Shown one piece after another: positions 11,220-43,537 of a stretch of 43,633 nucleotides of DNA. Below the pieces are notes generated by a model. That model saw only the letters and a list, made by a program, of their open reading frames with translations. It was not told where the DNA came from and did not search any database. This stretch comes from Nitrospiria bacterium. GTDB lineage: Bacteria; Nitrospirota; UBA9217. Every line of letters begins with the position of its first letter. Position 1 is the first letter of the stretch. Location: assembly GCA_919902495.1 (NCBI GenBank), contig CAKKRC010000062.1, positions 18,149 through 61,781 on the forward strand, read 5' to 3'. The position numbers and the translations under genes are program-made.

Positions 11220-13160
11220 ATGAGTGACATACGACTGAGTCTGCCTGACGGCAACGAGAAACGGTTGCCCGCAGGCATCACCGGTCTGGGAATAGCCGAA
11301 TCCATCGGTCCCCGCCTGGCAAAGGACGCCCTCGCGATCAAGTTGGACGGACGGCTGCAGGACCTGAACCTTCCCGTTGATCAAGATGCCTCCATAGCGA
11401 TCCTCACGTTCGACAGCCCTGAAGGCCACGAAGTGTACTGGCATAGCACTTCACATCTCATGGCCCATGCGGTCAAGCAGCTCTTTCCGCGGGCGAAGCT
11501 TGCCATCGGCCCGGCGATCGAAGAGGGGTTCTATTACGATTTTGACCTCGAGCGTCCCTTTACTCCGGAGGACCTCGAAAAGATCGAAAAGAAGATGGCG
11601 GAACTGGCCAAGGCGGCCACGCCGGTAACAAGAAAAAACATTTCCAAGGCGGATGCCTTGGCGTTCTTTATCAATCGAGGCGAGACGTACAAGGTAGAGC
11701 TGATCAATGAACTGCCTGACGAAACGATCTCGATCTACGAGCAGGCTGACTTTGCCGATCTCTGCCGGGGTCCCCATGTGCCGACAACGTCGAAGATCAA
11801 GGCCGTGAAGCTCCTGTCCATTGCCGGCGCCTACTGGCGGGGCAGCGAGAAGAACAAGATGCTCCAGCGCATCTACGGCATCTCATTCCCGGCGAAGGAG
11901 AAGCTTGACGAGTATATCGCCCGGCTCGAGGAGATCAAACGACGCGACCACCGGAAGCTCGGCAAGGACCTCGATCTGTTCTCCATCTCCGAGGAGTCGG
12001 GGGGCGGACTGGTCCTGTGGCACCCGCGGGGCGCGCTCATCCGGAAGACGATCGAGGACTTCTGGCGCGACGAGCACCAGAAGAACGGCTATGACTTTGT
12101 GTATTCGCCGCATGTGGGCAGGGCCTCTCTCTGGGAGACATCGGGCCACCTGAGCTTCTACCGGGAGAACATGTATTCGTCCATGGACGTGGAAGGGCAG
12201 GAGTATTTCGTGAAGCCCATGAACTGCCCCTTCCACATCATGATCTACAAGAACAAACTCCGCTCCTACCGAGACCTCCCGCTCCGGTTCGCCGAGCTGG
12301 GCACGGTGTACCGGTTCGAGCGGTCGGGCGTGCTGCACGGCCTCCTGCGGGTCAGGGGATTCACGCAGGACGACGCGCACATCTTCGTTGCCCCCGAAGA
12401 CATGGAAACCGAGGTCGTTCAGGTCATCGCGTTCGTGGTCAAGATGCTCAGGACCTTCGGGTTCGACGATTTCAAGGCCTACATCGCCACGAAGCCGGAA
12501 AAATCCGTGGGTGACGATTCGAAGTGGGAGCAGGCGACGCAGGCGCTCAAGGTCGCCGCGGACAAGGCCGGCCTGGCATACGAACTTGATGAGGGCGGCG
12601 GCGCATTCTATGGTCCGAAGATCGACATCAAGATCAAGGACGCTCTCGGGCGGCTCTGGCAGTGCTCCACGGTGCAGTTCGATTTCAACCTGCCCGAGCG
12701 CTTCGATATGAACTTCATCGGCGTCGATAACCAGGCCCATCGGCCCTACGTGATCCACCGGGCGCTCCTGGGATCGCTGGAGCGGTTCTTCGGAATGCTG
12801 ATCGAACACTATGCAGGCGCGTTCCCGGTGTGGCTCGCGCCGGTGCAGGCGAAAGTACTGTCCATCACGGACCGGCAGCTTGACTACGCCAAAGGCGTGC
12901 GGGACAAGCTGCTCGCCGCGGGGATCCGGGCGGAGATCGATACCCGGTCGGAAAAGATAGGGTTCAAGATACGCGAGGCGGCAATGGACAAAGTTCCCTA
13001 CATCCTTGTGGTGGGTGACAAGGAAGTCGAGCAGAACGCCGTGGCCGTCCGCGAACGCGGAGGCAAGGACCTCGGCGCCATGCCGCTTGAAGCATTTATG
13101 ACCGGTATTTCGGATCTCATTAAGAATAAACGTACGACAACTGAACTGACAAGGGGGTGA
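11220..13160 (+). CDS. thrS: Threonyl-tRNA synthetase
   Basis: A 646-residue class II synthetase that charges tRNA-Thr in the cytosol. Order: N-terminal TGS domain (1-62); the editing domain with HSTSHLMAHAVKQLFP (His-rich motif) and GFYYDFDL; the class II catalytic core with MNCPFHI (zinc-ligand Cys), YRFERSGVLHGLLRVRGF (motif 2) and DNQAHRPYVIHRALLGSLER (motif 3); and a C-terminal anticodon-binding domain (VLSITDRQLDYAKGVRDKL). Length and domain order match the bacterial enzyme. It heads the conserved thrS-infC-rpmI-rplT unit, and its final codons contain the infC ribosome site. No T-box leader is visible upstream. Confidence 0.97.
   Translation: MSDIRLSLPDGNEKRLPAGITGLGIAESIGPRLAKDALAIKLDGRLQDLNLPVDQDASIAILTFDSPEGHEVYWHSTSHLMAHAVKQLFPRAKLAIGPAIEEGFYYDFDLERPFTPEDLEKIEKKMAELAKAATPVTRKNISKADALAFFINRGETYKVELINELPDETISIYEQADFADLCRGPHVPTTSKIKAVKLLSIAGAYWRGSEKNKMLQRIYGISFPAKEKLDEYIARLEEIKRRDHRKLGKDLDLFSISEESGGGLVLWHPRGALIRKTIEDFWRDEHQKNGYDFVYSPHVGRASLWETSGHLSFYRENMYSSMDVEGQEYFVKPMNCPFHIMIYKNKLRSYRDLPLRFAELGTVYRFERSGVLHGLLRVRGFTQDDAHIFVAPEDMETEVVQVIAFVVKMLRTFGFDDFKAYIATKPEKSVGDDSKWEQATQALKVAADKAGLAYELDEGGGAFYGPKIDIKIKDALGRLWQCSTVQFDFNLPERFDMNFIGVDNQAHRPYVIHRALLGSLERFFGMLIEHYAGAFPVWLAPVQAKVLSITDRQLDYAKGVRDKLLAAGIRAEIDTRSEKIGFKIREAAMDKVPYILVVGDKEVEQNAVAVRERGGKDLGAMPLEAFMTGISDLIKNKRTTTELTRG
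13151..13160 (+). promoter_or_regulatory. Extended Shine-Dalgarno deciding the AUU start of infC
   Basis: AAGGGGGTGA (13151-13160) matches the full anti-16S complement AAGGAGGTGA in nine of ten positions and overlaps the thrS stop codon. Its end abuts TTG 13161 (too close) but lies 6 nt before ATT 13167, the ideal distance. Confidence 0.7.
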
Positions 13161-13166
13161 TTGTTT

Positions 13167-33114: not shown

Positions 33115-33179
33115 CTACGTCTTGTCGACTCAATAAGCCTGCACGATATTTGAATATTCTTTTCTCTGAAGGGGGAAGT

Positions 33180-34304
33180 ATGAAGATCAAAGATATCGCA
33201 TCGGTCAGCAAGCAACTTGGTGTGTCACGCAGGGAGTTCCTGAAATATTGCAGTATCGTGGCCGCAGGCATGGGGCTGCCTCTCGGTGCCGGAGAGCAGA
33301 TTGCCGAGGCGGTCACCAGCGCGGCAAGGCGACCACCGGTCATCTGGCTTTCAGCACAGGAGTGCACCGGTTGCAGCGAATCACTTCTTCGAGCCACCCA
33401 TCCCACCTTTGAACACCTGATCCTCGATCTTATCTCCCTTGATTATCACGAAACGCTCAGCACGCCATCGGGCCACCAGGCCGAGGCCGCGCGCGCCGCA
33501 TCGATCAAGGCGAACAAGGGGGAGTTCATCCTCGTGGTGGATGGCGCCATCCCCGTGAAGGACAATGGCATCTACTGCATGATCGCAGGCAAGACGGCTC
33601 TGGATATCCTTAAGGAGACGGCCAAGGAATGCAAAGCGATCATCGCGATGGGTTCCTGTTCGTCATGGGGCGGTGTGCCGTCCGCGGATCCCAACCCGAC
33701 CGGCGCAACCGGGGTGCAGAAGATACTTACGGATGCGGGCATCAAGACGCCGGTCGTCACGATCCCGGGATGTCCTCCTAACCCCTACAATTTCCTCTCG
33801 ACCGTCCTATACTTCGTGACCTTTAAAAAATTGCCCGAGCTCGACGATCTGGCCAGACCCAAGTTTGCCTATGGCCGCCTCATCCACGAAAATTGCGAGC
33901 GTCGGCCCCATTTCGATGCCGGCCGGTTCGCAACGGAGTTCGGTGATGAGAACCATCGAAAGGGCTACTGCCTGTACAAGCTGGGGTGCAAAGGCCCGGA
34001 GACCCATGCCAACTGTCCGTCGATCCTATTCGGCGACACCGGCGCCGGCACCTGGCCGGTCGGGACGGGACACCCCTGTTTCGGCTGCACCGAGAAGGGC
34101 ATCGGATTCCATAAACCGCTGTTCAGCAGGGCCAGCCTGCACATGGTCACCCCGCCGGATACCTATCCTCATGTCGTTGAACATCAGGGCAAGTCGGCGT
34201 TGGCCGGCATCGCGGTTGCCGCGGCCGCGGCCGGGGCCGCCTATGTTGCGGTCGATAAAGTGGCGAAAAAACTGGGCGACGACGACGGGAAAGGCAAAAA
34301 ATAA
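33180..34304 (+). CDS. hybS: Uptake [NiFe] hydrogenase small subunit, Tat-exported
   Basis: A 374-residue small subunit carrying the three Fe-S clusters that take electrons from the NiFe site. It has a twin-arginine signal (SRREFLKYCSIVAAG), then proximal-cluster cysteines in ECTGCSESLL, GSCSSWGG and GCPPNP. Distal and medial cluster ligands are in HENCERRPHF, GYCLYKLGCKG, ANCPS and GHPCFGCTEKGIGF. Position 19-type extra cysteines of oxygen-tolerant enzymes are absent (CTGC, not CTCC), so the enzyme is probably the standard oxygen-sensitive kind. A C-terminal Ala-rich helix may anchor it. ATG 33180 has AAGGGGGAAG upstream. First gene of hybSABLP. Confidence 0.96.
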   Translation: MKIKDIASVSKQLGVSRREFLKYCSIVAAGMGLPLGAGEQIAEAVTSAARRPPVIWLSAQECTGCSESLLRATHPTFEHLILDLISLDYHETLSTPSGHQAEAARAASIKANKGEFILVVDGAIPVKDNGIYCMIAGKTALDILKETAKECKAIIAMGSCSSWGGVPSADPNPTGATGVQKILTDAGIKTPVVTIPGCPPNPYNFLSTVLYFVTFKKLPELDDLARPKFAYGRLIHENCERRPHFDAGRFATEFGDENHRKGYCLYKLGCKGPETHANCPSILFGDTGAGTWPVGTGHPCFGCTEKGIGFHKPLFSRASLHMVTPPDTYPHVVEHQGKSALAGIAVAAAAAGAAYVAVDKVAKKLGDDDGKGKK

Positions 34305-34324: not shown

Positions 34325-35278
34325 ATGGAAATTAAACGAAGAGATTTCCTGAAAGTAGCCACAGCCGGCGGTCTCATGCTGGCGGCGAACGCGCACCCAT
34401 CCCTCGCCCGTGAGCCGAAAGCACGCATCAAGGACGCGGTCGGCATGCTGTACGATTCAACGGTCTGCGTCGGCTGCAAGGCGTGCGTTTCAGCCTGCAA
34501 GCAGTACAACGAGACCCCGTCGAGCTTTTCCTCGACCGACGAGATATGGGACAATCCGCTCGATAACGATGCCAAGACCTACAACATCATTAAACTTTAC
34601 AAGAGCGGCACAGGAGCGGCCAAGGACCGGGAACAGGACGGCCATGCCTACGTCAAGCGGCAGTGTATGCACTGTGTGGACCCGGCCTGCGTGTCAGCCT
34701 GCCCGGTATCGGCGCTCAAGAAGGGTCCCAAGGACGGCATCGTCTCATACGACAAGGACGCCTGCATCGGCTGCCGGTACTGCCAGGTGGCATGTCCGTA
34801 CAACGTCCCCAAGTTCGAGTTCGAGAAGGCCTTTCCGATGATCAGGAAGTGCCAGCTTTGTTCGCACCGGCTGGAGAAAGGGGACATCCCGGCATGCTGC
34901 CAGTTCTGCCCGACGGGCGCATGCATCTTCGGCAAGGTGGAGGACCTGCTGGCGGAGGCGAAGAAACGGCTGGCGTATAAGCCGGGGGAGCTGCGGAAAT
35001 ATCCGGTCGAGCGCGTCAGCGGAGGTCCGGTTGCCGAACGGATCGTAACCCCCTATGTGCAGAACGTCTACGGGGAAAAAGAGGGCGGCGGGACCCAGGT
35101 GCTGTATCTTGCGGGAGTGCCCTTCGAAAAACTCGGTCTTCCGGCACTCGAGGAGACCTCCGATGCCCAGAGGTCGGAGACCATCCAGCATACGCTGTAT
35201 AAGGGCATGATCGCACCGATCGTGATGCTGGGCGGACTCATATATATTGTTCACAAGAACACAAAGGACCATAAATAA
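34325..35278 (+). CDS. hybA: HybA-type ferredoxin subunit of the hydrogenase
   Basis: A 317-residue periplasmic electron-transfer subunit with a Tat signal (KRRDFLKVATAGGLMLAANA) and four cysteine groups for four [4Fe-4S] clusters: CVGCKACVSACKQYN, CMHCVDPACVSACPVSALKK, CIGCRYCQVACPYNVPKF and CQLCSHRLEKGDIPACCQFC. A C-terminal membrane helix (GMIAPIVMLGGLIYIV) anchors it. It passes electrons from HybS to the membrane partner HybB. It is separated from hybS and hybB by about 20 nt each. Confidence 0.95.
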   Translation: MEIKRRDFLKVATAGGLMLAANAHPSLAREPKARIKDAVGMLYDSTVCVGCKACVSACKQYNETPSSFSSTDEIWDNPLDNDAKTYNIIKLYKSGTGAAKDREQDGHAYVKRQCMHCVDPACVSACPVSALKKGPKDGIVSYDKDACIGCRYCQVACPYNVPKFEFEKAFPMIRKCQLCSHRLEKGDIPACCQFCPTGACIFGKVEDLLAEAKKRLAYKPGELRKYPVERVSGGPVAERIVTPYVQNVYGEKEGGGTQVLYLAGVPFEKLGLPALEETSDAQRSETIQHTLYKGMIAPIVMLGGLIYIVHKNTKDHK

Positions 35279-35295
35279 CCATAACGGAGAGGACT

Positions 35296-36477
35296 ATGTC
35301 TGAAGAAAGCAAACCTATAGGTGGTGAGTTTCTGACAACGCCGTTCAAGGTCCTTGCCGGATTCACGCTGTTTGCGGGTCTCCTGGTCTTGATCCGGTAC
35401 GTAATGGGCCTCGGCGCGGTATCCAACCTGAACGACGGCTATCCCTGGGGCATCTGGATCGCCTATGATGTGGTCGCTGGCACGGCCATTGCCTGCGGCG
35501 GATATTCCATGGCACTCCTGGTCTACGTAATGAACAAAGGGGAATACCACCCCCTGATCCGACCGGCTCTCCTGGCAGGCGTGTTCGGGTACACGCTGGC
35601 GGCTGTTTCGATCTTCATCGACGTCGGCCGGTACTGGCAGGCCTATAACATGTTCATGCCTTGGTACGCGAACGTGAACTCGATCATGCTCGAAGTGGCG
35701 GTCTGCATCGCTACCTATGTTTTTGTCCTGTGGATCGAGTTCGCACCCGTCTTCTTTGAGGGCATCCAGACGAACAAGAGCAACCTGCCGGCATTCCTGA
35801 CCAAATGGGACGTCTCGGGGCTTCAGAAGACCTGGAACAAGTACCTGTTCTTTTTCATCGCCCTCGGCATCCTGCTCCCGACCATGCATCAATCCTCCCT
35901 CGGTACCCTGATGGTGATCGCGGGAAAGAAGCTGTCCCCGCTTTGGCAGACCGGTCTCTTGCCGCTCCTCTTCCTCATATCGGCCATCACCATGGGATAT
36001 GCGATCGTAGTGTTCGAGTCGCTCTACGCGTCAGTCGGCTTCAAACGACCTCTTGAAATGAAGTTCCTGTCGAGGCTATCCGGTATCATCACGTATTTGA
36101 TAGGCGTGTACCTCATCCTGCGGTTCCTCGATGTCATCGTGCGGGGCGCCTTCGGTCTGGCCTTCCGGTTCGACCTGAACAGCCTCATGTTCTGGATCGA
36201 GAACGCCCTCTACTGCGTGGCGCTGTTTTACCTTCTGCCACAGGCGAACCGGTCTCGACCCAAAGCGTTGTTCCTCGGCGCCTTCTTTTTGCTGCTGGCA
36301 GGAACGGTATACCGGTTCAACGCTTTCATGATCAGCTTCGATCCGGGCAACGGCTGGCATTACTTCCCGTCGTTCGGAGAGATCATGATCACCCTGGGCA
36401 TCATCTCGTTCGAGATCATGGCATACCTGTACATCGTAAGGAAATTCCCCGTGCTGCCGAAGGCTGAGCACGCATAA
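35296..36477 (+). CDS. hybB: HybB/NrfD-type membrane subunit of the hydrogenase
   Basis: A 393-residue integral protein with about ten membrane helices of the NrfD/PsrC fold. GGEFLTTPFKVLAGFTLFAG opens the protein and LNDGYPWGIWIAYDVVAGTA is the family signature. It hands electrons from hydrogen oxidation to the menaquinone pool. No haem-binding motif is present, as expected of this family. ATG 35296 has GGAGAGG upstream. It lies between hybA and the large subunit gene, the order known from E. coli and Geobacter Hyb systems. Confidence 0.95.
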   Translation: MSEESKPIGGEFLTTPFKVLAGFTLFAGLLVLIRYVMGLGAVSNLNDGYPWGIWIAYDVVAGTAIACGGYSMALLVYVMNKGEYHPLIRPALLAGVFGYTLAAVSIFIDVGRYWQAYNMFMPWYANVNSIMLEVAVCIATYVFVLWIEFAPVFFEGIQTNKSNLPAFLTKWDVSGLQKTWNKYLFFFIALGILLPTMHQSSLGTLMVIAGKKLSPLWQTGLLPLLFLISAITMGYAIVVFESLYASVGFKRPLEMKFLSRLSGIITYLIGVYLILRFLDVIVRGAFGLAFRFDLNSLMFWIENALYCVALFYLLPQANRSRPKALFLGAFFLLLAGTVYRFNAFMISFDPGNGWHYFPSFGEIMITLGIISFEIMAYLYIVRKFPVLPKAEHA

Positions 36478-36502: not shown

Positions 36503-38203
36503 ATGTCGAAAAGAATCGTCATAGATCCAATCACCAGGATCGAAGGCCATCTGCGCATCGAGTGCGAAGTGGAGAACGGAAAGGTCAGCAAGGCCTGGAC
36601 GTCCGGCCAGATGTGGCGCGGGATCGAGAACATCGTGAAGGGCAGGGATGCCCGCGAGGTCTGGCTCTTCACCCAACGGATCTGCGGGGTTTGAACGTCC
36701 GTTCACGCACTGACCTCGGTGAGGTCGGTTGAGAACGCCCTGCAGCTCGAAATACCGCTGAACGCGCAGTATATCCGGAACCTGATCATGGCGGCCCATG
36801 GCGTACATGACCATATCGTGCATTTCTACCACCTGGCAGCCCTCGACTGGGTGGACATTGTCTCGGCCCTGAAGGCCGATCCCAAGAAAGCGTCGGCGCT
36901 CGGTGAGAGCCTTTCGAACTGGGACCAGAACAGCGCCAAGCACATGAAGGAAGTGCAGGACCGGCTGGGCACCTTCGTGAAGAGCGGTCAGCTCGGCATC
37001 TATGCGAACGGCTACTGGGGCCATCCGGCCATGAAACTGCCGCCCGAGGTGAACCTCCTTGCCGCGGCGCATTACCTTCAGGCGCTTCATTACCAGCGCA
37101 GGATCAACATGGTGGTGTCCATTCTTGGCTCCAAGACGCCGAACATTCAGAACCTGGCTGTGGGCGGCGTGGCGAACGCGATCAACCCGGACAATCAGTC
37201 GGCGCTCAACATGGAACGGCTCTACTACATCAAGACGCTCATCGACGAGGTCCAGAGCTTCGTGAGGAACGCGATGCTTGTCGATGTCGCCGCCGTGGCG
37301 GCCTTGTATGCTGATTGGACCGGACACGGCAAAGGCGTTACGAACTATCTTTCGGCTCCTGATATGCCTATGGATACGAAGGGAACCGCTTTCGCGCTGC
37401 CGGGCGGTTACATCGAGAACGGGGATTTCGCTACGTTCAAGCCGATCAAGAGCTTTAATGATGAATACTTCAAAAATGGTGTGAAGGAGAGCATCAAACA
37501 CTCCTGGTACAAGGGTGACTGGAACAAGCATCCTTTTGAAGAGACGACGGACCCGAACCATACAGGCATGCAGTACGACGGGAAATATTCCTGGGTCAAG
37601 GCGCCGACGTTCAACGGCAAACCTGCCCAGGTCGGTCCGCTTGCCAACGTGCTGTGCATGTATGCCGCAGGCCACGCCGGGACCAAGAAGTATGTCACCG
37701 ATATGCTGAATACCATAAGCGCGGTCGCCAAGACAAAGGTCGGGCCGGCAGCGCTGCACTCGACCATCGGACGCATCGGCGCCCGGGCTGTCCGTTGCGC
37801 GGTGCTGTTGGATGAGTGCACGAACCAGTGGAACGCGCTGGTCGCCAACATCGGCAAGGGCGATGTAAAGACCTTCAATGCGCCCAAGTTCCCGAGCGGC
37901 GAGATCCGGGGCGTGGGTTTCCACGAAGCGCCGAGAGGCATCCTGTCGCACTGGGCGGTCATTGACGGCGGCAAGATCAAGAACTATCAGTGCGTTGTTC
38001 CGTCCACCTGGAACGCGGCCCCGCGGAACGGAAGCGATCAGCCCGGCCCGTACGAGGCCTCGCTGGTCGGCACGCCGCTGGCCGATCCGGAAAAGCCCCT
38101 GGAAGTCCTCCGGACCGTGCATTCTTTCGACCCTTGTCTGGCCTGCGCTGTTCACCTGGTCGATGCAAAAGGGAGAGATATCATCACGGTGAAGGCCCTG
38201 TAA
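36503..38203 (+). CDS. hybL: [NiFe] hydrogenase large subunit with in-frame TGA (probable selenocysteine)
   Basis: It holds the NiFe active site. The frame opens at ATG 36503 (ribosome site AAGGAGA). It runs MSKRIVIDPITRIEGHLRIE...FTQRICGV, meets TGA at 36692-36694 (codon 64), and goes on without any shift as TSVHALTSVRSVENALQ to TAA 38203, 566 codons in all, the usual size of HybC. The TGA replaces the second Cys of the N-terminal ligand motif RxCGxCxxxH. The first Cys61 and the whole C-terminal motif DPCLACAVH (Cys545, Cys548, His551) are intact. The 15-residue tail removed by the maturation protease (LVDAKGRDIITVKAL) is also intact. Everything else is conserved, so recoding as selenocysteine is the best reading. 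Alternatives are a recent nonsense mutation or a base-call error. Confidence 0.93.
36692..36694 (+). other. In-frame TGA read as selenocysteine (residue 64)
   Basis: TGA between GGG GTT and ACG TCC, at the position of the bridging Cys (equivalent of Cys68 in Desulfovibrio gigas HynA). The same frame is fully conserved on both sides. Confidence 0.72.
36709..36729 (+). promoter_or_regulatory. Candidate bacterial SECIS element in hybL
   Basis: The hairpin ACTGACCTC-GGT-GAGGTCGGT has nine pairs (one T-G). It starts 15 nt after the TGA, with its loop 24 nt after it. The loop GGU carries the guanine and uridine that SelB recognises in bacterial SECIS elements. Confidence 0.65.
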
Positions 38204-38226: not shown

Positions 38227-38267
38227 AGCCCTCTTGCCCCATCGTTCGGAGGCGGAGGGCTTTTTTT
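38227..38267 (+). terminator. Intrinsic terminator between hybL and hybP
   Basis: AGCCCTC/GAGGGCT stem with a 21-nt loop and seven T. It separates structural genes from maturation genes and probably reduces, not stops, downstream transcription, as no promoter is evident after it. Confidence 0.72.
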
Positions 38268-38284
38268 ATGTCCAGGAGACACGT

Positions 38285-38788
38285 ATGCATTTGAAGGAAC
38301 CAACGATTTCGATCATAGGGCTCGGCAACATCCTCATGACCGATGAAGGGGTCGGCGTACACGCAGTGAACGAGTTCGAGCGGCGATACACGGTCCCCGA
38401 GCATGTTGAGATCGTCGATGGCGGTGCAGCGGGGCTCGATCTGATACCGTTCATCGAGGGAAGGGAGAAGGTCCTGATGGTCGATGCCGTCAATTTCGAT
38501 CAAGATCCGGGATACATTGGTGAACTGGAAAATGACGCAATTCCCGCGCGGATTACCCAGAAGGCCTCCATGCACCATCTGGGGCTCATGGACGTCCTCT
38601 GTATTGTGCGCATGTCAGGAAACATACCCAAGGAACTCTGTATCATCGGCATCCAGCCGAAGAGCCTCGAACTCGGTCTTGACATGACCCCGGAGATATG
38701 GGATAAAAAAGATATCCTTATCGAGCGTATCGTATCAAAGCTTAAGGAATGGAACATACCATGTGCCTTGCGGTCCCCTCAAAAGTAA
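38285..38788 (+). CDS. hybP: Hydrogenase maturation protease (HybD type)
   Basis: A 167-residue endopeptidase that removes the C-terminal tail of the large subunit after nickel insertion. The family motifs are ISIIGLGNILMTDEGVGVHA (the metal-sensing Glu16-equivalent in DEG), VDGGAAGLDLIPFIEG and MVDAVNFD. ATG 38285 has CAGGAGA upstream; the longer frame to 38234 lies within the terminator hairpin. The 3' end overlaps hypC by 28 nt. The name follows Geobacter hybP. Confidence 0.92.
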   Translation: MHLKEPTISIIGLGNILMTDEGVGVHAVNEFERRYTVPEHVEIVDGGAAGLDLIPFIEGREKVLMVDAVNFDQDPGYIGELENDAIPARITQKASMHHLGLMDVLCIVRMSGNIPKELCIIGIQPKSLELGLDMTPEIWDKKDILIERIVSKLKEWNIPCALRSPQK

Positions 38789-39366: not shown

Positions 39367-40014
39367 TTGAAAGTTAAGGTCGTGTCAAGGATCCTCGAAG
39401 CGAACGACAGGATAGCCGAGGAGAACAGAAAGAGGTTCAAGGAAGCGGGGGTGTTCGTCGCGAACCTGATGGGCGCTCCGGGCGCGGGGAAGACGACGCT
39501 GCTTGAGGAGACCATCAAACGGCTCAAGCCGCATCTGCGTATCGGGGTCATCGAAGGCGACATCGTCGGCCAGGACGACGCGGATCGGATCGGCGCGCTC
39601 GATATCCCTGTTGTCCAGATCAACACCGGCGGCGCTTGCCACCTTGACGCGAACATGATCAATGAGGTCCTCGATGAACTGCCGCTCAAACAGCTCGACA
39701 TGGTCATTATCGAGAACGTCGGCAACCTCGTTTGTCCGGCCGAATTCAAGGTCGGTGAGGACATAAAACTGATGGTGCTTTCAGTCGCGGAGGGTCACGA
39801 CAAGCCGCTCAAATACCCCCTTATGTTCCAGCAGTCATCAGGACTGGTGCTGAACAAGATCGATCTGCTTCCGTACGTCAAGGTTGACATCAATAAAATG
39901 AGGAGCGATTCCCTTGCGTTGAACCCGAAGCTCAAGGTCTTCGAGGTATCATGCTCTTCCGGGGCGGGGATCGATGCGTGGGCTCAATGGCTGAACGGGC
40001 TCAGATCGCAGTAA
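39367..40014 (+). CDS. hypB: HypB, GTPase for nickel insertion
   Basis: A 215-residue G3E GTPase that drives nickel delivery from HypA. P-loop GAPGAGKTT (about 37-45), GVIEGDIVGQDDADRI, GGACHLDANM with the metal-binding Cys-His, IIENVGNLVCPAEF and the guanine motif LNKIDLLP. The N-terminal His-rich nickel-storage stretch of some relatives is absent. The start is TTG 39367 with GGAG 8 nt upstream; no ATG precedes the P-loop at a suitable distance. The 3' end overlaps hypF by 28 nt. Confidence 0.96.
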   Translation: MKVKVVSRILEANDRIAEENRKRFKEAGVFVANLMGAPGAGKTTLLEETIKRLKPHLRIGVIEGDIVGQDDADRIGALDIPVVQINTGGACHLDANMINEVLDELPLKQLDMVIIENVGNLVCPAEFKVGEDIKLMVLSVAEGHDKPLKYPLMFQQSSGLVLNKIDLLPYVKVDINKMRSDSLALNPKLKVFEVSCSSGAGIDAWAQWLNGLRSQ

Positions 40015-42398
40015 AAGGGACCGTCCAGGGCGTCGGTTTCCGTCCATACGTCTATACCCTTGCGACCAGCCTCGGGTTGGCCGGATACGTTTCCAATAAC
40101 GCGGGCGGCGTTCACATCGACATTGAAGGCGCGTCGGTCTCCGAATTTATCCGGCGGTTGCCCGTAGAGGCGCCGCCGCTATCCCATATCGCCGATATTT
40201 CCGTCACGCCGCTCCCCATCCATGGATATACAGGATTCACGATCCAGGCAAGCAGTGACCACGCCGGCAACTATCCCTTCACGCTCATTTCCTCCGATGT
40301 TTCTGTCTGTCCTGATTGCCTTCAGGAAATGAACGACCCGAGCGACCGTCGATACCGCTATCCATTCATAAACTGCACGAACTGCGGGCCCCGCTATACC
40401 ATTACCCGGGCAGTCCCCTATGACCGGCCGAACACGACCATGGCGGGCTTCCCTCTGTGCACGGAATGTTCGCGGGAATACCATGATCCGCGTGATCGGC
40501 GGTTCCATGCACAGCCCATTGCATGTCCGGTGTGTGGACCGGAAATCGAGTTTCACGTGCGGAGCAGTGCGGAGTGCGGAGTGAAGGGGACCGAGGCGTT
40601 AGAGTCCTGTATCAAGGCATTGCGCGAAGGCGGCATCGTGGCGATCAAGGGGTTGGGCGGCTTTCATATTGCCTGCGATGCCTTGGATCATCATGCAGTT
40701 GCGGCGCTGCGGGAACGAAAGCGGAGGAGCAACAAACCGTTCGCTGTCATGGCAGCTTCGGTCGAGGTGCTGCAGGGATTTTGCGAAGTTGGCCGTGAGG
40801 AACAGGAGCTGCTCGAATCGGCAAAGCGGCCGATCGTTCTGCTCAGGAAGAAACAACCGGAGGCGGTCCTCGATCCTCTTTCCGGTGACGTAGCGCCGAA
40901 CAATCTTTATATAGGATGTATGCTGCCGTACACTCCATTGCATTCACTCTTGTTCACAGCAGGAGATAAGGAACACGATACGGGATCACGAACATTGTCC
41001 GTGCTGGTCATGACGAGCGGTAACCTGTCAGAAGAACCGATCGTTCACAGGAATGTGGATGCGATACAGAAGCTTTCGGGCCTCGTCGATGCGTTCCTGA
41101 CCCATAACAGGGATATCTTCATGAGGGTCGACGACTCTGTGGTACGGATTGCGGATTGCGGATTGAGGAGTAAGGATTATAAAAAAAGAACAGATAAATC
41201 AGGAATCCGAAATACGAAATTCAATATTTCTTTTCTACGCCGAGCGCGCGGATACGCGCCTGAAGCGATCGTACTTCAAGATACCGGGCCCGAGGTCCTC
41301 GGCTGCGGCGCAGACCTCAAGAATACGTTTACCGTCACCAAGGGATCGTTCGCCATTCCCAGCCAGCACATCGGGGATATGGAGAATTACGAGACCTTGG
41401 AGTTCTACGAAGAGTGCCTCGCAAATCTCAAACAAGTCTATCGTGTGGAGCCGGTTGCCATAGTACACGACCTGCATCCCGGCTATCTTTCTACGCGGTG
41501 GGCCGTGGAAGAGGGGTCAAGGTGCAAACTCCCGCTTTTCCCGATCCAGCATCATTATGCCCATATCGGGTCCGTTATGGCCGAACACGGACTTACGGAA
41601 AAGGTCATCGGTGTTGCTTTCGACGGGACCGGGTACGGCACTGACGGGAACCTGTGGGGAGGTGAGTTTCTGATCGCCGGTATTGAAGGTTTCGATCGAG
41701 CTGGACAGTTCAAGTACATCCCGCTTCCGGGCGGTGAGGCCGCGATCAGAGAACCCTGGAGAACGGCAGTAAGCTATGTAGCTGATGCAGATGAAACTCG
41801 GGCAGCAGACCGGCTTGCTTCGATCGGATTTCTGGAAAGACATGGACAGGCATCCGTCGAACAGGTCCTGAAGATAGCGGATTCGAAGGACCTTTCACCG
41901 CTCTCATCCGGTGCCGGAAGATTGTTCGATGCCGTATCGGCCATACTCGGGGTCTGCGACCGCAACACCTTTGAAGGTGAGGCTGCCATTGCATTGGAGG
42001 CGCTGACGGTCGAAGGAATTGATGGCGAGTATCCGATTGTTTTAACAAAGAATAATGGGTATACTGTTATCGATTTTTGTAATGTTATTCAGGCGATGAT
42101 CGATGACTTCGTGAATAAAGAACCAAAGCCCGTAATTGCGACGCGCTTCCATAATACGATCGCTTCGGCCATCAGCTTGCTGGTGAAGGGCATCCGTGAT
42201 CGGACCGGGATCCTGGACGTGGCCTTGAGCGGCGGAACCTTCCAGAACAGATATTTGCTCGCCCGGACAGTCGCTCTGCTCACAACTGACGGTATGCGGG
42301 TCCATACCAACTCGCAGATGCCTCCCAATGACGCGTGCATTTCGCTCGGCCAGGCATATCTTGTCCGGGAGAGGCTACAGAAGTGCGGAGTGCGCTAG
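39987..42398 (+). CDS. hypF: HypF carbamoyltransferase with repeat-derived insertions
   Basis: An 803-residue protein (relatives are about 750-780) that makes the cyanide ligands with HypE. It has acylphosphatase (1-90, VQGVGFRPYV), two zinc fingers (CPDCLQEM...CTNCGP and CTECSREY...CPVCGP), a YrdC domain (GGIVAIKGLGGFHIACDALD) and a Kae1-like domain (QHHYAHIGSVMAEHG, AFDGTGYGTDGNLWGGEFL, ALSGGTFQNRYLL). Two stretches do not belong to the family: RSSAECGVKG (about 191-200) and RIADCGLRSKDYKKRTDKSG onward (about 388-417), just before FLRRARGYAP. Both coincide with dispersed repeats R2 and R3. The last residues (QKCGVR) come from another R2 copy. ATG 39987 lies inside hypB. Confidence 0.93.
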   Translation: MAERAQIAVKGTVQGVGFRPYVYTLATSLGLAGYVSNNAGGVHIDIEGASVSEFIRRLPVEAPPLSHIADISVTPLPIHGYTGFTIQASSDHAGNYPFTLISSDVSVCPDCLQEMNDPSDRRYRYPFINCTNCGPRYTITRAVPYDRPNTTMAGFPLCTECSREYHDPRDRRFHAQPIACPVCGPEIEFHVRSSAECGVKGTEALESCIKALREGGIVAIKGLGGFHIACDALDHHAVAALRERKRRSNKPFAVMAASVEVLQGFCEVGREEQELLESAKRPIVLLRKKQPEAVLDPLSGDVAPNNLYIGCMLPYTPLHSLLFTAGDKEHDTGSRTLSVLVMTSGNLSEEPIVHRNVDAIQKLSGLVDAFLTHNRDIFMRVDDSVVRIADCGLRSKDYKKRTDKSGIRNTKFNISFLRRARGYAPEAIVLQDTGPEVLGCGADLKNTFTVTKGSFAIPSQHIGDMENYETLEFYEECLANLKQVYRVEPVAIVHDLHPGYLSTRWAVEEGSRCKLPLFPIQHHYAHIGSVMAEHGLTEKVIGVAFDGTGYGTDGNLWGGEFLIAGIEGFDRAGQFKYIPLPGGEAAIREPWRTAVSYVADADETRAADRLASIGFLERHGQASVEQVLKIADSKDLSPLSSGAGRLFDAVSAILGVCDRNTFEGEAAIALEALTVEGIDGEYPIVLTKNNGYTVIDFCNVIQAMIDDFVNKEPKPVIATRFHNTIASAISLLVKGIRDRTGILDVALSGGTFQNRYLLARTVALLTTDGMRVHTNSQMPPNDACISLGQAYLVRERLQKCGVR
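40558..40583. repeat. R2 repeat inside hypF
   Basis: TGCGGAGCAGTGCGGAGTGC followed by GGAGTG. The same words are at 16562-16578, 42382-42394 and 42464-42477. It is read in frame as RSSAECGV. Confidence 0.75.
41149..41238. repeat. R3 repeat inserted in frame in hypF
   Basis: ACGGATTGCGGATTGCGGAT at the left end and GGAATCCGAAATACGAAATT toward the right, about 90 nt that keep the frame open and add about 30 residues. Confidence 0.72.
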
Positions 42399-42478
42399 AC
42401 ATGACCCTCACCCCTGCCCCTCCCCCCTGGAGGGAGAGGGAAAAAGGAGAGGGGGCTTTTCAACGCGGAGTGCGGAAT
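42382..42478. repeat. R2 copies and a GGAGGGAGAGGG hairpin at the hypF-hypD junction
   Basis: AGTGCGGAGTGCG supplies the last hypF codons. The 80-nt spacer has CCCCTCCCCCCTGGAGGGAG, able to fold on itself. A second R2 copy, GCGGAGTGCGGAAT (42465-42478), lies directly before the hypD ATG and supplies its purine-rich ribosome site. Confidence 0.65.
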
Positions 42479-43537
42479 ATGAAACAGCATATCGATGAAA
42501 TAAACAAGCTGATGATCGGGATCAGCAGGCCGGTGAAACTCATGGAGGTCTGCGGGACCCATACGGTCGAGATCTTCCGGCACGGGATACGTTCCATCAT
42601 ACCGGGCACGATCACTCTCCTGAGCGGCCCTGGGTGCCCGGTGTGCGTCACCTCCATACGGGACGTCGATGCCGCGATCTCGATCGCGAAGCAGCCGAAC
42701 ACGGTCCTGGTGACCTTCGGGGACATGATGCGGGTGCCGGGAGGGAAACGGTCGCTCATGGATGCGCGGTCCGAAGGCGCGGATGTCCGGGTGATGTACT
42801 CGCCCATGGACGCCCTGAAGCTCGCACAGGAGGATGGTTCGAAACAGATCGTGTTCTTCGCCACGGGATTTGAAACGACATCTCCGCTGATAGCCGGTAC
42901 TGTCTTTGCCGCGTTTCAAAAGAAGGTAAGAAACTTCACCATTCTATCATCTCACAAGACGGTCCCCCTTGCTCTCAAGGCGCTCCTCGACGCGCCCGAC
43001 GTCCGCGTGGACGGGTTCATTCTTCCTGGACACGTGAGCACGATCATCGGCCTCGCTCCCTACGAATTTGTCGCGAAGAACTACCGGAAACCCGCTGTCG
43101 TGACCGGTTTCGAGGCAGGTGAGATCATCGAGGGCATCCTGATGATCATACGTCAGATCGCCAAGGGGGAGGCGAAGGTGGAGAACGCCTATCCCACGGT
43201 CGTCAGGCCGGAAGGGAACCCACGGGCTGTCGAGATATTGAACGACATATTCGAACCCTCAGACGCTTATTGGCGCGGGATCGGGGTCCTGCCGGGAACC
43301 GGCCTGAAGCTGCGGGAGAAATATCGGGAGTTCGATGCGGAAGCGCGATTCCACCCCGAGTCAACAGGGATAGCCGAGCCGGAGCTGTGCTCGTGCGGTG
43401 ATATATTGCGGGGGGTCAAGGTACCGACGGAATGTCCGCTCTTCGGAACAGGCTGCACCCCCGACAGTCCTGTCGGACCCTGCATGGTCAGCACGGAAGG
43501 CAGTTGTTCGGCCTATTTCAAATACGGACACCGATGA
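42479..43537 (+). CDS. hypD: HypD, Fe(CN)2CO assembly protein
   Basis: A 352-residue iron-sulfur protein that with HypC builds the Fe(CN)2CO unit. It contains VCGTHTVEIFRHGIRSIIPG, LLSGPGCPVCVTSI (active-site Cys pair), FATGFETTSPLIAG, GFILPGHVSTIIG and the C-terminal [4Fe-4S] ligands in CSCGDILRGVKVPTECPLFG and GTCTPDSP-like GTGCTPDSPVGPC. ATG 42479 is chosen by homology; the longer upstream frame runs through repeat DNA. hypE, normally next, is not in the window and may follow. Confidence 0.96.
   Translation: MKQHIDEINKLMIGISRPVKLMEVCGTHTVEIFRHGIRSIIPGTITLLSGPGCPVCVTSIRDVDAAISIAKQPNTVLVTFGDMMRVPGGKRSLMDARSEGADVRVMYSPMDALKLAQEDGSKQIVFFATGFETTSPLIAGTVFAAFQKKVRNFTILSSHKTVPLALKALLDAPDVRVDGFILPGHVSTIIGLAPYEFVAKNYRKPAVVTGFEAGEIIEGILMIIRQIAKGEAKVENAYPTVVRPEGNPRAVEILNDIFEPSDAYWRGIGVLPGTGLKLREKYREFDAEARFHPESTGIAEPELCSCGDILRGVKVPTECPLFGTGCTPDSPVGPCMVSTEGSCSAYFKYGHR

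Follow-up and report, generated by a model that had tools for sequence, protein, structure and literature searches.

The hybL gene of this Nitrospiria bacterium raises the question of whether a natural [NiFe] hydrogenase could carry selenocysteine (Sec) at the ligand that bridges nickel and iron. An earlier note on the window, by which we mean the whole analysed stretch of 43,633 nucleotides, had described hybL as one frame of 566 codons broken only by a TGA at 36692-36694, at the second Cys of RICGVC, and had reported both cysteines of the C-terminal motif DPCLACAVH to be present. Re-reading the frame bore out both statements: this TGA is the only one in frame, its context is RICGV-TGA-TSVHA, and C545 and C548 are intact. 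The closest PDB match of HybL was the large chain of Escherichia coli hydrogenase-2 (6en9, 4.1e-237), with residues 1-566 aligned on 1-567, and residue 64 aligned without gaps with C64 of that chain (E. coli HybC). This alignment agrees with the proposal of the earlier note that Sec stands at a Ni-coordinating N-terminal Cys; that this Cys is a bridging one rests on the established assignment in the family, where the later of the two N-terminal Cys bridges Ni and Fe. Position 61 is presumably, by homology, the N-terminal terminal Ni ligand.

The gene stands in an operon that runs from the small subunit through HybA-like, HybB-like, HybL, maturation protease, HypC-HypA, HypB and HypF to HypD (Table 1). 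We assigned the enzyme to the Hyb type by its full-length homology to HybC and by an operon in which the small subunit, HybA, HybB and the maturation protease are all present, and both criteria were met. A third criterion, four ligand cysteines, was not met, as the ligand set of hybL consists of three Cys codons and one TGA. The best NCBIfam model for HybL was that of the hydrogenase 2 large subunit (879.8 bits, under its cut-off of 969), and none of the NCBIfam models reached its own cut-off on this protein.

Table 1. Features of the hydrogenase operon, in window coordinates.
Feature	Position	Strand	Basis or remark
Hydrogenase small subunit (HybO-like) ORF	33150..34304	+	NiFe_hyd_SSU_C, Oxidored_q6
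HybA-like ferredoxin subunit	34325..35278	+	Fer4_11
HybB-like membrane subunit	35296..36477	+	NrfD
hybL, [NiFe] hydrogenase large subunit	36503..38203	+	566 codons then TAA; one in-frame TGA, read as Sec64
Cys61 codon TGC	36683..36685	+	TGA in UU relatives
TGA codon 64, bridging-ligand position	36692..36694	+	frame reading and alignment
SECIS-like hairpin	36710..36730	+	loop GGU 36718-36720; stem 36710-36717 with 36721-36728; no SelB-binding data
C-terminal motif DPCLACAVH	38129..38155	+	C545 at 38135-38137, C548 at 38144-38146, both intact
Hydrogenase maturation protease	38234..38788	+	HycI; ORF from TTG, true start possibly further in
HypC and HypA domains, single ORF of 183 codons	38749..39300	+	HupF_HypC 5-63, HypA 69-182
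HypB	39367..40014	+	cobW/HypB/UreG
HypF	39951..42398	+	domain search
HypD	42335..43537	+	domain search

The explanation that we favor, with a probability of roughly 0.88, is a natural, quinone-linked Hyb-type [NiFe] hydrogenase with Sec64 at the Ni-Fe bridge, decoded by SelB and tRNA-Sec with the help of a SECIS element. Under this explanation hybL would encode the large subunit of a membrane-linked, hydrogenase-2-like enzyme, and SelB and tRNA-Sec would read the UGA at codon 64 as Sec, guided by a SECIS hairpin with a loop that begins 23 nt downstream. By homology, Sec64 would take the place of the N-terminal bridging thiolate, so that the core becomes Ni(mu-Se)(mu-S)Fe; H2 would most likely supply electrons to the quinone pool by way of HybO, HybA and HybB. 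That Sec is inserted, where it sits in the cofactor, how the electrons travel and what selenium contributes are all inferred, as there are no protein, selenium or expression data.

Several known systems resemble parts of this arrangement. FrhA and VhuU/MvhA, of the Sec-containing F420-reducing and methyl-viologen hydrogenases, belong to group 3 and have their Sec in the C-terminal motif; they are hydrogenase large subunits with Sec, as HybL of the window would be. They differ in carrying a UxxC motif with one Sec, according to the accessible part of a 2026 review of prokaryotic selenoproteins, where Sec-containing hydrogenase large subunits appear only with UxxC and Sec hydrogenases are described as exclusive to sulfate-reducing and methanogenic organisms (PMC13188914). 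Bacterial UxxU selenoproteins have two Sec three residues apart, as do the relatives with two TGA codons described below, but those named in the same part of the review are Prx-like, metal-binding and FmdB-type proteins, with no hydrogenase large subunit so listed (PMC13188914). The [NiFeSe] hydrogenases of the HysA type (Desulfovibrio, Desulfomicrobium) also have a natural Sec as Ni ligand in a [NiFe] large subunit; however, their Sec is at the first Cys of the C-terminal motif, where the window has Cys, and this criterion of the HysA type is not met. Likewise, the NCBIfam HysA model gave 342.9 bits on HybL vs a cut-off of 780.

E. coli hydrogenase-2 (HybOABC) matches HybL in the location of all four ligand positions and has HybA and HybB, to which the window has similar partners, but all four of its ligands are Cys whereas the window has TGA at position 64. 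As far as the available portions of two papers go, each Ni-coordinating Cys of E. coli Hyd-1 and Hyd-2 has been replaced by Sec in engineered variants (PMC11212049, PMC13111528). In the first of these papers HybC Cys 61, 64, 546 and 549 were changed singly as Ni ligands; the four Hyd-2 Sec variants were all active, at levels below native, and C546U, altered at the non-bridging ligand that is Sec in [NiFeSe] enzymes, was singled out as markedly different in voltammetry (PMC11212049, available in part). The activity of these variants points to tolerance of Sec at 64, with a benefit that may appear under stress, not in plain turnover.

The earlier note had also called a bridging Sec a possibly undescribed chemistry. 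This held for nature, since a full-text search of the open literature found no natural N-terminal Sec hydrogenase, within a coverage that was partial and left subscription papers and preprints outside; it did not hold for the laboratory, given the engineered E. coli variants. Both the enzyme family and the decoding system are known, and what has not been described in nature, within the partly accessible literature searched, is the metal-ligand position. In that literature, natural Sec in [NiFe] hydrogenases has so far been described as a single non-bridging Ni ligand.

We searched for homologues in 99 genomes (that of the window plus 98 relatives), of which 90 gave some match, and retrieved 30 loci. 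A single TGA was found in 6 loci, the window's among them and all from its family, a double TGA (RI-TGA-GV-TGA-TTVHA) in 7 loci from other families of the phylum, and Cys in 17. We denote TGA at the bridging codon only as CU, TGA at both N-terminal Cys codons as UU, and Cys at both as CC. An exact-pattern scan of contigs from one genome per species gave at least 118 stretches, all listed ones matching the window's HybL (lowest, 99.6 bits). Codon 64, which the earlier note had wanted compared among homologues, is TGA in 12 further loci of the 30 and in all 118 matches listed, a recurrence far beyond chance.

Among the 118 matches listed, 35 were CU and 83 were UU; the pattern fixes the flanking residues, and these counts are therefore no census. 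By phylum, as read from their record titles, the matches listed fell into Nitrospirota (51), Chloroflexota (43), Thermodesulfobacteriota (10) and others or unassigned (14), the first three together making up 104. All seem to come from metagenome-assembled genomes (MAGs), some overlap the 99-genome set, and two (L086 and L102) belong to one MAG. Both C-terminal Cys were present in 90 of the 90 loci among the matches listed in which the motif was found, the motif being cut off or unmatched in the other 28. Wider searches at E 1e-100 in the phyla of a Desulfobacca MAG (L071) and a Chloroflexota MAG (L084) gave matches in 130/297 and 32/301 genomes, respectively, the majority without TGA. Forms with a single TGA also turned up with other flanks: a separate subfamily has RSCGVU or RACGVU, in 5 genomes, and a single genome has RFCGVU. 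Among all gathered loci whose motif could be read, of which some were counted twice under two ids, we found 106 CC, 92 UU and 48 CU, and 2 loci were unreadable.

One of the loci (L249, G386:C47:2300-4500) has the classical C-terminal Sec, in DPUMACAVH, and Cys at both N-terminal positions.

What would selenium at this position bring? Oxidation of selenium is in general reversed more readily. The likeliest benefit, which we infer, would be that the bridging ligand is shielded from lasting oxidation, because an S-oxygenated bridging Cys has been proposed, in the part of the source available, as the mark of the inactive Ni-A state (PMC7324405). It is also conceivable, if on balance unlikely, that Sec is inserted and serves mainly in maturation or in a selenium-responsive control of the amount of hydrogenase, not in catalysis or resistance to oxidation. 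Such a role would fit the Cys enzymes of the same subfamily in close relatives, which imply that Sec is not needed for function, as well as the fact that reading of UGA ties expression to selenium supply. However, Sec occurs repeatedly at a metal-ligand Cys, and Sec at the first position only (UC) was absent from the gathered loci and, by pattern, from 395 genomes of the phylum, which argues, if only indirectly, for the chemistry of the site.

Sec64 as a bridging ligand presupposes a signal for SelB next to the codon. Bacterial SECIS elements, in published searches, are hairpins with G or U in the loop, 16-37 nt past the UGA. The window has a hairpin of 21 nt (-11.1 kcal/mol, z -3.64) with a GGU loop that starts 23 nt after the UGA, and this criterion of a selenoprotein is met; SelB binding is only inferred. 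The 50 nt from the UGA of the window folded with a z of -1.94. The apical hairpin was first tested in three segments picked after viewing the alignment, and the Cys control was later raised from 17 to 106 sequences. Against random sequences of synonymous codons that kept the peptide, the mean z of the 21-nt hairpin was -2.67 in CU (n=42) and -2.25 in UU (n=77), vs -0.24 in CC (n=106), and the hairpin passed the 5% level in 89/119 TGA sequences vs 7/106 Cys sequences. Furthermore, a scan of 14 windows placed the minimum at the hairpin in both TGA groups, with partly low values in overlapping neighbors. The signal is confined to this apical hairpin: the 54-nt region downstream of the UGA, folded as a whole, showed no excess stability over synonymous randoms (CU -0.46, UU -0.08, CC -0.35), longer stretches of L010 and L012 folded unremarkably (z -0.31 and -0.83), and Rfam, at E up to 10, returned no SECIS and two matches that were both under their gathering score.

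Covariation was observed in the stem of the commonest hairpin class (72 sequences, 35 distinct 21-mers), in which 197/210 cells were paired and 0/2000 shuffles scored as high; 17 Cys sequences used for comparison had 45/102 cells paired. Pair 3-17 was G-C in 6, T-A in 10 and A-T in 12, and pair 4-16 was C-G in 6 and G-C in 26. These covarying changes shift amino acids, as Ala, Ser or Cys at codon +7 is matched by partner bases at codon +11. The class was set by pairing score, and when the same register was applied over all TGA sequences still 0/2000 shuffles were as high. No covariation was detected in the window's own class, which has a three-base loop (11 sequences, 6 distinct; 1706/2000 shuffles as high), or in a third class (4 distinct; 2000/2000). 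Synonymous codon identity over the hairpin was raised in UU (0.63 vs 0.43; 0/177 other windows as high), weakly so in CU, the group of the window (0.52 vs 0.45; 16/176), and not in CC (0.43 vs 0.49; 130/177).

In the UU loci (L012-L018 and the 83 among the matches listed in L065-L182), the second UGA starts nine nucleotides after the start of the first and a single main hairpin follows, and one SECIS may therefore serve both. In this form the terminal Ni ligand 61 would also be Sec, and both UGAs would depend on that single element.

Nucleotides 3-24 after the second UGA of UU sequences hold a weaker second local structure (mean z -1.32), whose pairing register, judged by eye, differs between Nitrospirota and Chloroflexota. 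The Thr codon at +2 in UU has a synonymous identity of 0.93 (0.31 in CU). In some Cys forms without an evident Sec past (for example L204, L269 and L189) the apical hairpin also exceeded synonymous randoms, and it is not settled whether these hairpins are further fossils or chance products of GC-rich sequence.

In the genome of the window (3.67 Mb, 97% complete), the genes for SelB and SelA are neighbors, that for SelD contains its own TGA, and a tRNA-Sec carries the anticodon UCA. All four of selA, selB, selC and selD, for which the earlier note had suggested a search, are thus present in the same genome, and together with an in-frame UGA where homologues have Cys they fulfil two further sequence criteria for a selenoprotein. 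In a first set of 24 genomes, SelA, SelB and SelD were each over cut-off in 13/13 TGA genomes, and a tRNA-Sec above 60 bits was found in 11 of these 13; in G002 the search found none, and the match in G089 was a tRNA-Ser. SelA was over cut-off in 7/11 of the other genomes of this set, and 4 genomes with a Cys HybL had neither SelA nor SelB over cut-off. We considered SelA as a discriminating correlate and rejected it, since it was over cut-off in 47/50 further TGA genomes (taken from the 118 matches listed) vs 62/67 genomes chosen for a Cys HybL, one of which (G451) also has a TGA form. SelA is common in Cys-HybL genomes too, and is therefore needed but not discriminating.

The presence of this machinery also bears on the possibility that the UGA is decoded as cysteine, by a tRNA-Cys with a UCA anticodon or by a Cys-loaded tRNA-Sec, and that the enzyme is an ordinary [NiFe] hydrogenase. 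Cys is indeed the residue found in homologues (106 CC loci), and tRNA-Cys(UCA) is known from other bacteria. We nevertheless regard this possibility as improbable. A plain suppressor tRNA needs no hairpin, whereas a hairpin conserved after the UGA and covarying in its commonest class suits decoding by SelB. Moreover, 10 of 29 checked ORFs of the window, hypD among them, end in TGA as an ordinary terminator, which rules out a general reassignment of TGA. Finally, the genome has the Sec machinery, although tRNA-Cys(UCA) was outside the scope of the genome search.

Sec insertion is also preferred over a true stop or a decayed gene, in which the second half of hybL would be a pseudogene or a separate product. 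An ORF of 494 aa does start after the TGA, from a GTG (36719-38203), but a product from 36719 would be without two of the four metal ligands, those at positions 61 and 64. Furthermore, dN/dS downstream of the TGA was 0.03-0.12 between the window's hybL and four relatives (a fifth pair, with L009, was left out since its codons were not indel-aligned), and the part beyond the TGA is therefore under selection. With the operon intact and the same codon in more than 100 contigs, this explanation is very hard to maintain. A sequencing or assembly error at a TGC codon, which draft genomes without read coverage data might invite, is excluded as a general account by recurrence of the codon in many assemblies of several phyla, with a hairpin that tracks the codon, and we give it practically no weight.

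Elsewhere in the window, an ORF at 11220 read across TGA 13158-13160 was considered as a selenoprotein and rejected, as by eye it is thrS followed by infC. At 13158-13163 the thrS-like ORF stops at TGA and the infC-like ORF follows directly in the same frame, so that read-through mimics a selenoprotein.

Taken beyond this one locus, the data make it probable, with less assurance than for the window's own gene, that the window represents a widespread undescribed class of natural hydrogenases. In this class Se would occupy the Ni-Fe bridge and in many cases both N-terminal Ni ligand positions (Ni then being surrounded by two Se and two S), repeated changes of state would have taken place in Nitrospirota, Chloroflexota and Desulfobacterota, and two UGAs nine bases apart would share a single SECIS. 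We examined these changes on a tree of 128 representatives from 225 rows (a quick LG+G4 search, with motif columns kept and U treated as a gap). The state of position 64 changed at least 13 times on this tree, and a three-state label at least 19 times, far under the shuffles (mean 45.1). Cys and Sec forms were interleaved in at least 3 parts of the tree. As reconstructed from these alignments, the Sec state clearly does not go back to one event; sampling of Cys forms was partial, and gains could not be distinguished from losses.

A natural bridging selenolate and a two-Se form, if true, would provide evolved enzymes in which one could measure what each ligand contributes to oxygen damage, proton transfer and catalytic bias, in contrast to the low-yield engineered variants available so far. 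We also infer that automatic annotation may truncate the hydrogenase genes of these Nitrospirota, Chloroflexota and Desulfobacterota at the UGA or label them pseudogenes, and that hydrogen use in these groups may therefore be under-counted.

A single locus illustrates how the state may change. L261 (G295:C179:1100-3300) is a Cys form (TGT) within an otherwise-Sec clade (7 rows, support 100), and its hairpin is that of a UU relative in 21/21 letters. It therefore reads as a change from Sec to Cys that left a fossil hairpin. With the hairpin intact in this Cys homologue, and with Cys and Sec forms interleaved in the tree, the family lends itself well to the study of Sec gain and loss. The RSCGVU lineage, which lies in a distant part of the tree, has a hairpin of the loop type seen in the window.

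Two HybL-like genes, L218 (G516) and L243 (G414), contain an in-frame TAG, and L243 additionally has a TGA.
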